A stretch of 32,491 bases of DNA from a virus. Location: positions 1 to 32,491 of IMG/VR virus record IMGVR_UViG_3300009285_004588, one strand, 5' to 3'. The notes below the pieces were generated by a model. The model was given only the letters and a program-made list of their open reading frames with translations, did no database searches and was not told the DNA's origin. Positions 12,574 through 18,881 of the stretch are shown here, in pieces. Position 1 is the stretch's first letter. Each line of letters begins with the position of its first letter. The position numbers and the translations under genes are program-made.

Positions 12574-12722
12574 GTTTTTTACTCCAAAACTTTTTTTTGA
12601 AAGGGTATTGACTTTTGTTTTTTTACTTTGTAGATTTGTTTTGTGCTTTATTCAAAATATACCCGTACATCGTATTATAGGGTATGAACGTAAAACAAAA
12701 CACTAAACAGGAGATTTGAGAA
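12574..12722. promoter_or_regulatory. Divergent promoter and operator region
   Basis: This stretch separates the leftward structural block from the rightward small-gene block. On the plus strand TTGAC (12608-12612) and TAGATTTG (12631-12638) are 18 bases apart and match the Bacteroidota -7 consensus TAnnTTTG. The inverted repeat ATACCC (12659-12664) / GGGTAT (12680-12685) lies between the plus promoter and its gene and could be an operator. On the minus strand TATAAT and a TATATTTTG box overlap the same repeat, so both directions could be controlled together. The minus-strand promoter is less certain. Confidence 0.65.
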
Positions 12723-13186: not shown

Positions 13187-14125
13187 ATGGCTAAATCACT
13201 CGCAAAGAAAACAGCAGCAACGACAAAAAAGAAAACATTGTCTGTTGCAAAAGAAAAAACTGTTGCAACACCCGCTGAAAAAAAACGTGGTCGCCCTGCA
13301 CAATCCGAAGCGGAACCGATTAAACGCGGCAGGGGTAGACCAAAATCGGCAACGCCAAGGGTTTCGGAAACCGGATATATTGATCCGATTCGCGCAAAGG
13401 GCGATACCCGCGCATTTTATTCTACCGATGAAAGGCCCGGTGTTTGGTCAATAAAAGCGCTACCCATTCCGACAAAGGGCGATGTGCTTTCGCTCATTGA
13501 AAACAACGGCAGGTTTCGTGTTCTAAATGGTGGTTGCGGAGGATATATTAGCAATGTCCGTTCCAACAAAGCTACTGCAAATTTGCCGGAATCTGTATCA
13601 TTTGATTGTGTTGCACAACGATACGGCACAGAATATAAGTGTAGATTGTTTGCAGATAGAACATTAAAAGTTGTTCGTGTGAATGACGATACGGAAAAAT
13701 TCTATACAAAAGAACAAACTATTGCATTGTGCCGTATTCGCCCTGCAATGGATGAATCTCCCGCACCCGCGAAGAAAGCTGTCAAGGTTGCAAAAGAAAA
13801 AACTGTCGCTGCACCTGCTGAAAAAAAACGGGGTAGACCTGCAAAAGTTGAAACAATTGCAGCACCCGCAAAGAAATCGGCAAAAGTTGAAACGATTGTG
13901 CCTGTAAAAAAGACAAAGACATTGGGTAAAAAATCCATTGCAGAAGTTGCCGAAATTATACCCGCAAAAAAACGCGGTCGCCCTGCAAAGGGTTCGGTAA
14001 AAACGATGCCCAACTCCGATAAACGCGCTGCCGCGAAGGAAGCATCAATTAAAACAAAAGTAAAAACAAAAAAGATCACAAACACCGTTGAAGAAGATGA
14101 TTTCGAAGATGATGGTTGGGATTAA
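13187..14125 (+). CDS. AT-hook DNA-binding protein with central unknown domain
   Basis: The product has 312 residues. Lys/Ala/Pro-rich arms flank a Cys-containing central domain (about 60-190). Four AT-hook cores are visible: RGRP at 34-37, RGRGRP at 47-52, RGRP at 215-218 and RGRP at 263-266. The 19-residue unit VAKEKTVATPAEKKRGRPA at 20-38 recurs at 201-219 with one change, so the arms grew by internal duplication. The C-terminus is acidic and ends EEDDFEDDGWD, recalling the protein-binding tails of SSB-like proteins. AT-hooks bind the minor groove of AT-rich DNA, so the protein may coat or organise phage or host DNA. CAGGAGTAATGTATC precedes ATG 13187. A terminator follows. Confidence 0.85.
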   Translation: MAKSLAKKTAATTKKKTLSVAKEKTVATPAEKKRGRPAQSEAEPIKRGRGRPKSATPRVSETGYIDPIRAKGDTRAFYSTDERPGVWSIKALPIPTKGDVLSLIENNGRFRVLNGGCGGYISNVRSNKATANLPESVSFDCVAQRYGTEYKCRLFADRTLKVVRVNDDTEKFYTKEQTIALCRIRPAMDESPAPAKKAVKVAKEKTVAAPAEKKRGRPAKVETIAAPAKKSAKVETIVPVKKTKTLGKKSIAEVAEIIPAKKRGRPAKGSVKTMPNSDKRAAAKEASIKTKVKTKKITNTVEEDDFEDDGWD

Positions 14126-14206
14126 ACAAAACAAGACAAAATTCTCTGCTACCCGCTAACTTCCCCGCTACCATTTCCCGCTAAATTTCCTGCCTTTGGA
14201 CTAATG

Positions 14207-14232
14207 GACCGTAGCAATACGGTCTATTTTTT
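14207..14232 (+). terminator. Terminator after the AT-hook gene
   Basis: GACCGTA (14207-14213), loop GCAA, TACGGTC (14218-14224), extended by a G-T pair, then TATTTTTTT. This is a classic rho-independent terminator. It lies directly before the first A-tract promoter cassette and insulates it from read-through. Confidence 0.85.
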
Positions 14233-14240
14233 TACCCTGC

Positions 14241-14354
14241 AAAAAAAAGTTTTGTTAAAATATGGCGATTCTGGCCTAAAAACGGCACTTTAAAAAAAAG
14301 TTTTGAAAAAATGTCTACAGGGTATTGACTTTTGTTTTATTCGCTTGTATCTTG
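14241..14354 (+). promoter_or_regulatory. Rightward promoter cassette 1
   Basis: The order is A8-GTTTTG tract (from 14241), a 25-bp core (14263-14287), a second A8-GTTTTG tract (14292-14305), TTGAC (14325-14329) and TATCTTG (14348-14354), 18 bases apart. The core begins TGGCGATTCTGG and ends AAAACGGCA. The same architecture recurs near 15.0 and 16.4 kb. A-tracts may act as UP elements and the core as an operator. Confidence 0.8.
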
Positions 14355-14409
14355 AAAGTGAAAGTTAAGCGAAACAGAAACAGACAACAAAACGAGACAG
14401 GCAACCAAA

Positions 14410-14565
14410 ATGAAAAACCCGATCAACTTCAAAACTTTCATGATGATTCAATCAAGGTGGTTACGCTTGTACGTTGCAAAATACGGAATTGACGAATTAA
14501 CGGCAGCACTCGAAATTGCGCCCAAAATGCGGGCAATGATCGAAACCCGATATACGATAATTTAA
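14410..14565 (+). CDS. Small unknown protein, 51 residues
   Basis: The frame encodes 51 residues beginning MKNPINFKTF and ending TRYTII, basic with a helical middle (ELTAALEIAPKMRAMIE). ATG 14410 is preceded by ACAGGCAACCAAA and by promoter cassette 1. It is followed within the same unit by the DUF2958 gene. It is a good gene candidate because of its promoter, ribosome binding site and operon position. No family is recognised. Confidence 0.7.
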   Translation: MKNPINFKTFMMIQSRWLRLYVAKYGIDELTAALEIAPKMRAMIETRYTII

Positions 14566-14599
14566 CACCTCAATATCACAAAGCTTTACAGGTGCAACA

Positions 14600-14944
14600 A
14601 TGATCGAAACTTTAAAAGCCAAACGTCGCCACATGTTAATCACAAAAGAGATTGCCGCGAAAATTCCGGCACTCTACACAAACGAGAACAAAGAAAAATG
14701 TGAGATTATGGTTTATTTGAAACTGTTTTCCCCTTATTCTGATTATACGTTCTATGTTACTGAAATGAATCCAGAGACAGGCGTTATGTTCGGTTTGGTT
14801 GTAAATCAATACGGCCCTGAACTTGGCTATTCTGATTTTTCTGAACTCGAATCATGCAATCGTAACGGATTGCCGCTAATTGAACGGGACTGCTATTTTA
14901 CTCCCGTTACCTTACAAGCGATCTATGACAGGCACGAAAATTAA
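14600..14944 (+). CDS. DUF2958 family protein
   Basis: The product has 114 residues. The pattern KIPALYTNEN, VYLKLFSPYSDYTFYVTEMNPE, FGLVVNQYGPELGYSDFSELES, GLPLIERDCYFTPVTL matches DUF2958, a small domain common on plasmids, conjugative elements and phages and of unknown function. Its near-full length suggests an intact copy. ATG 14600 has the stereotyped leader CAGGTGCAACA. It is the last gene of unit 1 and a terminator follows within 20 bases. Confidence 0.85.
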   Translation: MIETLKAKRRHMLITKEIAAKIPALYTNENKEKCEIMVYLKLFSPYSDYTFYVTEMNPETGVMFGLVVNQYGPELGYSDFSELESCNRNGLPLIERDCYFTPVTLQAIYDRHEN

Positions 14945-14960
14945 AGACTGGAATATCCGT

Positions 14961-14992
14961 AAAACAGGCCCGAATGTTGGGCCTGTTTTGGT
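14961..14992 (+). terminator. Terminator after the DUF2958 gene
   Basis: A perfect 11-bp stem, AAAACAGGCCC (14961-14971) and GGGCCTGTTTT (14979-14989), with a 7-nt loop and a T-rich tail on both strands. It closes transcription unit 1. Confidence 0.85.
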
Positions 14993-15018
14993 TTATTCTG
15001 GCAAATGTCAAGCGCTAT

Positions 15019-15133
15019 AAAAAAAAAGTTTTGTTAAAAATTGCCGTTTTTTAGCTGGAATCGACACTTTAAAAAAAAGTTTTGGAAAAATGAAAAAAAC
15101 ACTTGACTTTTGTTTTAATAGGCTGTAGATTTA
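15019..15133 (+). promoter_or_regulatory. Rightward promoter cassette 2, core in reversed orientation
   Basis: The order is A-tract with GTTTTG (15019-15033), 25-bp core (15042-15066), second A8-GTTTTG tract (15071-15084), TTGAC (15103-15107) and TAGATTTA (15126-15133). The flanks match cassettes 1 and 3 in direct orientation, but the core (TGCCGTTTTTTAGCTGG... GACA) is the reverse complement of the cassette 3 core with one mismatch in 25. Confidence 0.82.
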
Positions 15134-15184
15134 CAGGGAGTTTAAAATTGAGATCGGCAACGAAACAAAACAAGGATTACGAAA

Positions 15185-15511
15185 ATGACAGCTTCAAAGA
15201 TCGATACCATTCTCCAGAAAATAAACGAAGTGTTCGGAAATCACACCTATGAGATTTCAAACTTCGAAAAATCCGAATTCGCTTCCGCTTTTAGAACAAG
15301 CGATGGAAACTACATTTCACTCGCAAATATTGAAGCTGGATTCAATGGAAGGGTTTTCGATCAATATGGCGATATTGTCAATCCCGATTATATTGTTTCA
15401 GGCTGTTTCCAAAAAGTGAATATGAGTGAAAGTGGCAAGTGCAACATTGAGGTTTGCTTATTACAGAAAGATAACGGCAGAGTAACGCACACGATTTTTA
15501 CAACGATTTAA
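15185..15511 (+). CDS. Unknown small protein, first gene of unit 2
   Basis: The product has 108 residues, mixed alpha/beta, with no recognised family. A helical N-terminus is followed by strand-like segments (GNYISLANIEAGFNGRVFD and CNIEVCLLQ). ATG 15185 lies about 50 bases after the -7 box of cassette 2; the leader ACAAGGATTACGAAA supplies AAGGA. Confidence 0.75.
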   Translation: MTASKIDTILQKINEVFGNHTYEISNFEKSEFASAFRTSDGNYISLANIEAGFNGRVFDQYGDIVNPDYIVSGCFQKVNMSESGKCNIEVCLLQKDNGRVTHTIFTTI

Positions 15512-15544
15512 GAAACAAAACTCTTTAACTCTACAGGTGCAAAC

Positions 15545-15817
15545 ATGAAAAAAAATATTAGACTATTCGATACAGTACGTGGTATCTACAGGGAAAAAGA
15601 TAATTCATACGAAGGAATCGTATCAAAAATTATACACATGAAAAATGGTATGGCACGAATTACAATGAAACTCGAAAGCCCGGTATATATCGACAATGTA
15701 AAAACATCAAAACTTTGTTTCTATGTAAAACCAGATGGAAGCAAAATGTACGATAGCTCTACACAGTTCCTTGTAATAACCGGCACAATACCAAATGCAA
15801 CAAAGGTGCAACAATGA
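15545..15817 (+). CDS. Unknown small protein
   Basis: The product has 90 residues and appears beta-rich (LFDTVRGIYREK, YEGIVSKIIHMKNGMARITMK), suggesting a small barrel such as an SH3-like fold, though that is a guess. ATG 15545 follows CTACAGGTGCAAAC. The stop overlaps the next start (ATGA), so translation is coupled. Confidence 0.75.
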   Translation: MKKNIRLFDTVRGIYREKDNSYEGIVSKIIHMKNGMARITMKLESPVYIDNVKTSKLCFYVKPDGSKMYDSSTQFLVITGTIPNATKVQQ

Positions 15818-16062
15818 CAGCACAAGAATTACGCATCATAATCGGCAAGGCGAAAACAATTTATTTGCATGTTAGTTTTTCTGCAATGCAAATAAAAAGC
15901 ATAGGTATTATGCACGATATGAGTATCATTATATCAAAAGATGAAGCATATACTATATGTGCAATGGCGGATATACGCAACGTAAACAATAGCGAGTATA
16001 CGCACATTGTTTTCCCTGCCGCAAGATATGATGCGAAAAACAAAACTCTATATCTCAATTAA
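15814..16062 (+). CDS. Unknown small protein
   Basis: The product has 82 residues, with no recognised family. It starts at ATG 15814 within the end of the previous gene, with AAGGTGCAACA upstream. The second half is beta-like and ends YDAKNKTLYLN. Confidence 0.72.
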   Translation: MTAQELRIIIGKAKTIYLHVSFSAMQIKSIGIMHDMSIIISKDEAYTICAMADIRNVNNSEYTHIVFPAARYDAKNKTLYLN

Positions 16063-16087
16063 CTCCACAAACTTTACAGGTGTTACC

Positions 16088-16282
16088 ATGGCGGAATCTT
16101 TGAAGTCAGTATTAATGCAGCGGGACAATATCACTTCCGAAGAAGCGGATGAGCTTATCGCGGAAGCAAAAGAACAGATGCAAGAATATTTAGCGGATGG
16201 CGATACGGAAGCGGCGTATGAAGTGTGTTCGGAAATGTTCGGACTTGAACCCGATTACCTTATGGATTTAATGGACTTTTAG
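16088..16282 (+). CDS. Small acidic helical protein
   Basis: The product has 64 residues, very acidic (many Glu/Asp), predicted all-helical: SEEADELIAEAKEQMQEY and AAYEVCSEMFGLEPDYL. The open frame runs further upstream, but ATG 16088 behind ACAGGTGTTACC is the well-supported start. Its charge resembles DNA-mimic or anti-repressor-type small phage proteins; this is speculation. A terminator follows at once. Confidence 0.8.
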   Translation: MAESLKSVLMQRDNITSEEADELIAEAKEQMQEYLADGDTEAAYEVCSEMFGLEPDYLMDLMDF

Positions 16283-16295
16283 GTGTTTTTTGGTG

Positions 16296-16323
16296 AAGGG
16301 CGGGGTTCAACGCCCCGCCTTTT
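16296..16323 (+). terminator. Terminator of unit 2
   Basis: GGCGGGG (16299-16305) pairs with CCCCGCC (16313-16319), extended by an AAG/TTT flank with a G-T pair, then TTTT. This is a GC-rich stem in an AT-rich region and closes the four-gene unit 2. Confidence 0.83.
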
Positions 16324-16361
16324 GCCTGTTTCACCCGGCATTTTTCCAAAGTGCAAGGATT

Positions 16362-16479
16362 TTTGAAAAAAAGTTTTGTTAAAATATGTCGATTCCAGCT
16401 TAAAAACGGCACTTTGAAAAAAAGTTTTGGAAAAATGAAAAAAACGCTTGACTTTTGTTTTATTAATTTCGTATCTTTC
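16362..16479 (+). promoter_or_regulatory. Rightward promoter cassette 3
   Basis: The order is A-tract with GTTTTG (16366-16378), 25-bp core (16387-16411, TGTCGATTCCAG... CGGCA), second A-tract with GTTTTGG (16417-16430), TTGAC (16448-16452) and TATCTTTC (16472-16479), 19 bases apart. Flanks and promoter match cassettes 1 and 2; the core has the cassette 1 orientation. Confidence 0.82.
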
Positions 16480-16519: not shown

Positions 16520-16777
16520 ATGAAAACAATCGAAATCGATGTCGTTTCATACGACGAAAAAATCCGCTTAACATTCGCGGTAAACAATTCGTACGAAGGT
16601 CTGTTCAGATACGACCGCGAGACGGGGGAATACAAACAACTGCTAGGCACATGCCAATTTTATGCGAGAACAACAAAAAAATTTATGCGTCGATTCCGCG
16701 CGCTCTATGGCGGAGAATACGGATATTATCAAAATATCAAAGCTGTGCGCGGTGCGTCTGAACTCGATAAATCGTAA
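16520..16777 (+). CDS. Unknown small basic protein
   Basis: The product has 85 residues from ATG 16520 (leader AAGGTGCAAC). The frame is open further upstream through the promoter, which argues against the longer form. The N-terminal half is beta-like (MKTIEIDVVSYDEKIRLTF) and the C-terminal half basic (TTKKFMRRFRALYGG). No family recognised. It is the first gene of unit 3. Confidence 0.75.
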   Translation: MKTIEIDVVSYDEKIRLTFAVNNSYEGLFRYDRETGEYKQLLGTCQFYARTTKKFMRRFRALYGGEYGYYQNIKAVRGASELDKS

Positions 16778-16815
16778 CTCCGACAATAAACAAAACACTA
16801 CAGGCAAACACCGCA

Positions 16816-17082
16816 ATGAAAAGTTTAAAAGAATACAAGGTCTTAAATCCGGCGGAAGCACCGGAAGGTTACTATGCTATATTGAAAAGCGATATAGCAA
16901 AAATGCGTACTGATAATATTTGTCGTGCATGTGATTGGAGAACAACATGCCAAAAAGATGATACCAATTTTACGCAGCATAATCACAGATGCATGGATCA
17001 AATCATCATACACGAAAAGACAGGCAATGAGATTTTTAGGTATGATGGTTGCAGCGTAGTTTTCAAAAAGTTACCACAATAA
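16816..17082 (+). CDS. Small Cys/His protein, possible zinc binder
   Basis: The product has 88 residues. Cys36, Cys39, Cys45, His55, His57 and Cys59 in ICRACDWRTTC and QHNHRC look like a metal-binding cluster. The N-terminus (YKVLNPAEAPEGYYAILKS) and the C-terminal strand (CSVVFKKLP) frame it. ATG 16816 follows CTACAGGCAAACACCGCA. Function unknown. Confidence 0.75.
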   Translation: MKSLKEYKVLNPAEAPEGYYAILKSDIAKMRTDNICRACDWRTTCQKDDTNFTQHNHRCMDQIIIHEKTGNEIFRYDGCSVVFKKLPQ

Positions 17083-17102
17083 ACAAAACAGGAGTAAACC
17101 CG

Positions 17103-17348
17103 ATGGAAACCCCGATGGAAACATACTTGATACAAGCAACGGCATGGAACAGAGAAGCAGGATATGTTACACTGAACACCACAACAGGTGAATATTTTGT
17201 GGAATGGATGAACGCCCCAATGTCTGTATATGACTATTGCGAATTCTCCGACAAGGCGGAAGCAGAGCGTATTATCGCAATAGTCCGTAACATACCGGAA
17301 TATGCAAACGTAACTTTTTCAATAACTTTTTCAATCGAATCATTTTAA
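17103..17348 (+). CDS. Unknown small protein
   Basis: The product has 81 residues from ATG 17103 behind ACAGGAGTAAACCCG; the open frame extends upstream but has no ribosome binding site there. The C-terminal NIPEYANVTFSITFSIESF resembles ALPDWPRDAVFSIEEI at the end of the next gene, so the two may be diverged duplicates. Confidence 0.75.
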   Translation: METPMETYLIQATAWNREAGYVTLNTTTGEYFVEWMNAPMSVYDYCEFSDKAEAERIIAIVRNIPEYANVTFSITFSIESF

Positions 17349-17386
17349 ACAAAACTACCACGAACAAAACAGGAGTATATCAAATC

Positions 17387-17662
17387 ATGCAACACAAGGA
17401 ATTCCAAATCAATTACACACCTGCCGTTAAGAGCAACGGTATATGGTACTTCGCATCGGTACATTTTAAAGATGAACCAAAACAATGCACCATAACAACG
17501 GATGATAAAAACACTTTTGTTATATCGACAAAAGATGATGTATACGAAAAGTATACCGATGCATGTTTTCTAAATAACGATGATCTAAGCAACGTCGTAC
17601 AGCTTTTCGAAGCGCTACCAGATTGGCCGCGCGATGCTGTTTTCTCAATTGAAGAAATATAA
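17387..17662 (+). CDS. Unknown small protein, last gene of unit 3
   Basis: The product has 91 residues, acidic, with beta-like segments and a C-terminus like that of its upstream neighbour (a P-E/D-aromatic turn then a VxFSI strand). ATG 17387 follows ACAGGAGTATATCAAATC. A bidirectional terminator lies about 20 bases downstream. Confidence 0.75.
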   Translation: MQHKEFQINYTPAVKSNGIWYFASVHFKDEPKQCTITTDDKNTFVISTKDDVYEKYTDACFLNNDDLSNVVQLFEALPDWPRDAVFSIEEI

Positions 17663-17749: not shown

Positions 17750-18304
17750 TCAGAAACACACTGTAGCAACGATTCCAAGCAATACCCCTGTCGTTGCATT
17801 CCAATAAACAAACTTCGGCACCATGGCCCCTATCCTGCCGTTTTTCACCCCGTACCACCATCCATAAGGAAACATCCAATAACCATATTGAAAATACCCC
17901 TCTATCGCCGGATCACTCCCGTAATCAGGCAATAAATACCAATCTTTTGATATTGCATGGAAAATAATATCATGTGAGAACATTATCCACATTATACCTA
18001 CTCCTATAGTACAACCTTTATCATAATACAAACCCACTCCTATAATTATACCGATTAAAACAACACCCTGCAAAACCCGGTACATTTTACTATCTTTATC
18101 ACTTACGTAATATTTCCAACATATTACATCAAAACTTATACAGAGTAAATTTAACCCGATAAACATAATCCATTTTCCAAAACTTATATCAAACGTCGGA
18201 GCTATCAACATCATTACTACGCTTAACAATAATGTCAGAGCGCTATAATCCTTTTGTAATATTGGAGCTATATCAATAGCCCATTTTGTTTTTAAATTCC
18301 ACAT
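17750..18304 (-). CDS. Polytopic membrane protein
   Basis: The product has 184 residues with about five hydrophobic helices (near 22-36, 44-62, 75-95, 100-118 and 165-183). An aromatic, Gly-rich loop EGYFQYGYWMFPYGWWYG lies before the last helix. ATG 18304 has AAGGAATAATTATC upstream. It is isolated between the convergent terminator and the repeat region, so it probably has its own promoter. Family not recognised; an envelope role such as superinfection exclusion would fit but is not shown. Confidence 0.78.
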   Translation of the reverse strand: MWNLKTKWAIDIAPILQKDYSALTLLLSVVMMLIAPTFDISFGKWIMFIGLNLLCISFDVICWKYYVSDKDSKMYRVLQGVVLIGIIIGVGLYYDKGCTIGVGIMWIMFSHDIIFHAISKDWYLLPDYGSDPAIEGYFQYGYWMFPYGWWYGVKNGRIGAMVPKFVYWNATTGVLLGIVATVCF

Positions 18305-18718: not shown

Positions 18719-18881
18719 TAATTCTTTTGTTTAATTAAATAACAACCCGATCTTTATTTTACCTGATTAAAATATAAATACGACAATTCTTTTGTTTAAT
18801 TAATATAGAGTAGGTTGTTTCTTTTAAAGCAGTAAAAGTAGTAGTATAAGCAATAGGGATGATTAATTCTTTTGTTTAATT
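18719..18881 (+). repeat. AT-rich repeats ATTCTTTTGTTTAATT
   Basis: Three near-identical copies start at about 18721, 18785 and 18866. A related CTATCTTTTGTTTTATTCAAT-like element lies near 18682 and a weaker one near 18650. Spacing is about 64 and 81 bases. They could be DNA-unwinding-type repeats or repeated -33-like TTTTG elements. Confidence 0.7.

Follow-up and report, generated by a model that had tools for sequence, protein, structure and literature searches.

Three small, early-type, rightward operons in the window analyzed here, a 32,491-base metagenomic viral contig that is classed as linear and is thus probably a fragment, each start with a copy of one block of ~106 bp, and in the middle copy the 25-bp core of the block is reverse-complemented in place. 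The block reads, in order, a AAAAGTTTT box, the core, a second AAAAGTTTT box, and a TTGACTTTTGTTTT/TAnnTT promoter. We consider it fairly probable that the three blocks (hereafter cassettes) are copies of a single phage control module serving a small regulon, and that the second core was rotated once and the rotation was tolerated. On the sequence, the core would most likely be an operator that functions in either orientation, a reading that we prefer over that of a genetic switch.

Similarity among the three copies is confined to these ~106 bp, setting in at the left box and fading just past the 14-mer TTGACTTTTGTTTT. A direct-repeat search recovered them as one family (D1) of three 72-bp copies, each with the 25-bp core inside and with flanks in the same direction in 3/3 copies, which confirms the preliminary description with respect to the flanks; its cassette coordinates and mismatch counts were likewise exact on recount. 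AAAAAAAGTTTTG, allowing ≤1 mismatch, occurs 8 times in the fragment (0.9 expected), and the 14-mer occurs 4 times on the + strand (0.01 expected). The AAAAGTTTT box is itself an odd palindrome with a central G, and the spacing around it is rigid: in all three copies, (i) this G lies 26 bp (left box) or 25 bp (right box) from the core centre, and (ii) the two boxes are 51 bp apart, or ~five helical turns, while (iii) the core centre precedes TTGAC by 50, 49, and 49 bp in copies 1, 2, and 3, respectively. These constant distances, together with the imperfect palindromy of the core, are new in this analysis. All three cassettes are intergenic, having the terminator of the preceding operon on one side and the next genes on the other (Table 1). 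The terminator-like hairpins themselves span 14203-14228 and 14960-14990 before cassettes 1 and 2, respectively, and 16298-16323 before cassette 3. Near-identical intergenic copies at a fixed promoter distance, each past a terminator, fit a repeated phage promoter-operator element, and the rotated putative operator within it is unusual but explicable. A role as a single-stranded hairpin was rejected, as the cassettes folded no better than shuffled sequences (z of -1.5, +1.2, and -0.4).

Table 1. Positions of cassette elements and neighboring features in the window
Feature	Position	Strand	Basis or remark
Terminator of AT-hook gene operon, upstream of cassette 1	14203..14235	+	intrinsic; 11-pair stem and T run
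Cassette 1 left box, AAAAAAAGTTTTG	14242..14254	+	exact match
Core 1, quasi-palindromic	14263..14287	+	direction of core 3, 4 mismatches
Cassette 1 right box, AAAAAAAGTTTTG	14293..14305	+	exact match
Promoter 1, TTGACT N17 TATCTTGA	14325..14355	+	
Operon 1, 51-aa ORF and 114-aa DUF2958 protein	14410..14944	+	Pfam PF11171, E=6.8e-11
Operon 1 terminator	14960..14996	+	intrinsic; 14-pair stem
Cassette 2 left box	15021..15033	+	exact match
Core 2, opposite in direction to cores 1 and 3	15042..15066	-	24/25 to reverse complement of core 3
Cassette 2 right box	15072..15084	+	exact match
Promoter 2, TTGACT N17 TAGATTTA	15103..15133	+	
Operon 2, four small ORFs (108, 90, 82, 64 aa)	15185..16282	+	ORF list
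Operon 2 likely terminator, G+C-rich hairpin then TTTT	16298..16323	+	read from sequence
Cassette 3 left box	16366..16378	+	exact match
Core 3, reference direction	16387..16411	+	
Cassette 3 right box	16417..16429	+	exact match
Promoter 3, TTGACT N18 TATCTTTC	16448..16479	+	
Operon 3, small ORFs (~85, 88, 81, 91 aa)	16520..17662	+	ORF list
Fourth related promoter, TTGACT N17 TAGATTTG at 12608	12586..12638	+	one reversed box at 12586, without core
AAGTAGTNNNATAAG copies	18836, 18893, 19477, 19667	+	
AAGTAGTNNNATAAG copies	19066, 19090, 19180	-	

The reversal of the middle core relative to the third, with unflipped flanks, was confirmed: the reverse complement of core 2 differs from core 3 at 1 of 25 positions, versus 12 in direct orientation. 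On both strands of 300 first-order Markov genomes matched to the fragment in length and composition, the closest sequence to core 3 agreed at 15-19 of 25 positions, against 24 and 21 for the real cores; a candidate fourth core at 17836 (17/25, within an ORF) was rejected, being within this chance range. Cores 1, 2, and 3 form 8, 6, and 7 of 12 possible palindromic pairs, and 0.5%, 7%, and 2% of the 25-mers of the fragment, respectively, are equally palindromic; the palindromicity is modest, and that of core 2 alone is not significant. The half-sites come in two consistently different versions, TG[TG]CGATTC and TGCCGTTTTT, and their B-A order is unique to the core of operon 2. The inverted repeats TGnCG/CGnCA, previously noted at the core ends, are indeed present, but their strictly shared part is merely TG/CA. 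The inversion takes in the third base from each end (the TGTCG at the left end of core 3 reads CGACA at the right end of core 2), which places the breakpoints in or outside the outer TG/CA, with a strict homology of 2 bp, or of 5 bp when one mismatch is allowed. The two bases directly left of the core are TA in the first and third copies but AT in copy 2. Inversion of the entire cassette followed by repair of its flanks was rejected, because the flanks match those of the other copies directly to the core edge.

Small inversions of a comparable kind have been described elsewhere. In yeast, template switches at short inverted repeats reverse the spacer that these enclose, and can restore it, with arms of >9 bp and short spacers (PMC8604942), and in chloroplasts, small inversions of 5-50 bp with arms of 11-24 bp are cited in PMC12928735. 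Such events resemble the phage flip in that a short segment is reversed in place with its flanks unchanged, but their arms are longer than the 2-5 bp of the phage core. Since the arms are shorter here, template switching is the best available mechanism and not a close match; the core of module 2 would most likely have been rotated one time by a replication error of this type in the quasi-palindrome.

A promoter of the form TTGAC-N18/19-TAnnTT stands upstream of all three cassette operons, although TTGAC..TAnnTT alone is not rare in this A+T-rich fragment (4 seen, 2.2 expected). A TAnnTTTG element at -7, accompanied by TTG/TTTG upstream, is the mark of primary (sigma-A) promoters of Bacteroidota (PMC7366714; PMC9723704). 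The promoter at 12608 matches TAnnTTTG exactly (TAGATTTG), and TAGATTTA, TATCTTGA, and TATCTTTC are only near matches. Judged by this promoter form, the phage host probably belongs to the phylum Bacteroidota. An estimated start site ~5 bp past the -7 element puts the core near -85. The suggestion of an UP-type element in the preliminary description is plausible just for the A-rich stretch adjoining TTGAC.

Leftward genes, running from 12,573 down to 3, include those for the portal, the head morphogenesis protein, an HK97-type capsid, a glycosyltransferase, and the large terminase subunit (28% identity over 91% in tblastn against annotated phage terminases). The glycosyltransferase gene (3-1787, - strand), near the capsid gene, encodes a GT4 domain with a weak GT2 match. 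From 12,608 rightward, small early-type genes are followed by a 1.4-kb gene-poor stretch and then by small leftward genes; Rfam and tRNA scans of the fragment were empty. The operon driven by the 12608 promoter, just before the cassettes, carries the gene for an AT-hook protein (13187-14125, + strand; 312 aa) with four RGRP motifs (Pfam PF02178), a phage-encoded candidate for A-tract binding. In operon 1, the DUF2958 protein (14600-14944, + strand) shares 44% identity with a Moorella phage MTATph1 protein. The ORFs of operons 2 and 3 returned no significant known family in family searches, and the hairpin that likely terminates operon 2 has a T run below what our terminator scan requires. Between 18305 and 19738, ~1.4 kb of A+T-rich sequence without convincing genes contain (i) seven perfect AAGTAGTNNNATAAG repeats, present in both orientations (0.0 expected), and (ii) three exact copies of AATTCTTTTGTTTAATT, at 18720, 18785, and 18865; this stretch might serve as an iteron-bearing replication origin or as a regulatory hub.

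In our preferred reading, the 25-bp imperfect palindrome centred between two AAAAGTTTT boxes is a putative operator, to which a two-fold-symmetric regulator would bind at about -85 with the A-tract boxes alongside, thereby setting the transcription of the three operons jointly. Family searches of the proteins of the fragment yielded no candidate for this regulator. Activation from upstream appears a little likelier than repression, given the core distance: about -85 is typical of upstream activator sites, and repression from there would require looping or other means. In class I activator sites, a dyad operator near -82/-85 is held in fixed helical phase and can take either orientation, since it is symmetric. 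The dyad of the core near -85 would resemble such sites, with the phage start sites being estimated and the activator hypothetical. As the core is palindromic and lies near-centrally between the boxes, its rotation leaves the geometry of the module intact. This preservation of architecture is our main reason for preferring an orientation-indifferent operator to a switch, and it agrees with the earlier suggestion of a duplicated site of that kind, the quasi-palindromic core being almost exactly midway between the boxes. The rotated core would have been tolerated with its spacing to the boxes and promoter constant, and it is best explained as having been kept because orientation hardly matters, so that the flip may be selectively neutral.

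Other readings differ in the meaning that they give to the flip. Programmed site-specific inversion, which the preliminary description had raised, would have a recombinase flip the core and so turn operon 2 on or off by phase variation. The core is truly inverted where its flanks are not, and short inverted repeats do mark its ends, but the breakpoints strictly share 2 bp, with TGnCG/CGnCA as the upper limit, and inverted repeats of a length useful to an inverton do not surround the segment. A segment of 25 bp is also too short to bend into the synapse of tyrosine or serine recombinases, and to our knowledge recombinase-driven invertons are all far longer. Further, the geometry is the same after the flip, which leaves no obvious on/off consequence, and no recombinase was found by family scans among the scanned proteins of this partial 32-kb fragment, which covered part of the small ORFs. 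A programmed recombinase switch is thus unlikely, and we give it only a slim chance. The flip could instead carry regulatory meaning, with asymmetric binding causing operon 2 to be regulated differently, for instance by repression in contrast to activation of the other two operons, or by expression at another time. The consistent difference between the half-sites and the confinement of the B-A order to operon 2 speak for this reading, whereas the equal box and promoter spacing in 3/3 copies is what would be expected if orientation were irrelevant; we hold it to be a real, though clearly lesser, possibility. It is doubtful that the core is an orientable operator, rearranged in place during evolution or infection, in which the direction of an asymmetric half-site pair sets the response of each operon to one shared regulator.

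The remaining two readings make the core, or its reversal, incidental. The cassette might act as a DNA structure, formed by phased A-tracts or an UP-like element and perhaps bound by the AT-hook protein, with the core mostly a spacer. Its boxes are about five turns apart, A-rich DNA adjoins TTGAC in copies 2 and 3, and the operon directly upstream encodes the protein with four RGRP AT-hooks, but core 2 and core 3 are as well conserved (24/25) as the boxes, and the palindromic ends of the core are unlike a spacer; we regard this reading as rather improbable. An assembly artefact, with the flip introduced by misjoining or mispolishing of a short-read contig, is conceivable for a metagenomic viral contig whose near-identical cassettes may confuse assembly. 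The copies are, however, distinct in their flanks and differ at single positions within and around the core, and a swap with another copy does not account for the flip; we know of no assembler error that reverse-complements 25 bp in place, and we consider an artefact extremely unlikely.

In pattern scans of IMG/VR and genome_contigs, neither the cassette nor the core turned up in any other record, and the cassette showed no meaningful similarity when searched against phages and plasmids. Four IMG/VR contigs with two AAAAAAGTTTTG were rejected as chance occurrences, as their intervening sequence is unrelated. Searches by terminase and capsid protein found no relatives in viral_contigs, nor did terminase searches of genome_contigs. 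The portal protein matched L004 at 38% identity and L019/L020 at 46% when aligned, and the cassette is absent from these portal-matched relatives. The nearest of them, L019, is a 73-kb contig that shares the terminase, portal, capsid, head, and glycosyltransferase proteins and a probable protease at 34-56% identity; it has no early genes in common with the fragment, and both cassette and promoter are absent from it. Its glycosyltransferase homolog is also encoded near the capsid gene.

Two published systems invite comparison. SPBRE is the binding site of one master regulator, MrpR, in the Bacillus phage SPbeta (PMC10516654), and, like the cassette, it is a phage-specific repeat in the promoters of many operons of mostly unknown function. 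It differs in being a 15-bp motif defined by ChAP-seq in a Gram-positive prophage and, in the available text of that paper, it is described without a box-core-box geometry and without discussion of orientation; we claim no sequence relation between SPBRE and the phage cassette. SAS/ESAS of Cluster K mycobacteriophages (PMC3203893) is likewise a repeated intergenic module before many small genes, and it too combines an asymmetric repeat with imperfect inverted repeats. However, SAS is located at translation starts, with 17-bp inverted repeats just upstream of it, whereas the phage module is upstream of a promoter and has its core between two boxes.

The cassettes document the inversion of a short segment in place, with breakpoints that share very little homology. 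They also provide a natural experiment on operator orientation, in which one site occurs either way round at unchanged spacing. Little is known of how phages of Bacteroidota control transcription, and the three modules would represent a compact, base-exact example of a regulon in a phage that is uncharacterised and probably belongs to hosts of this phylum.
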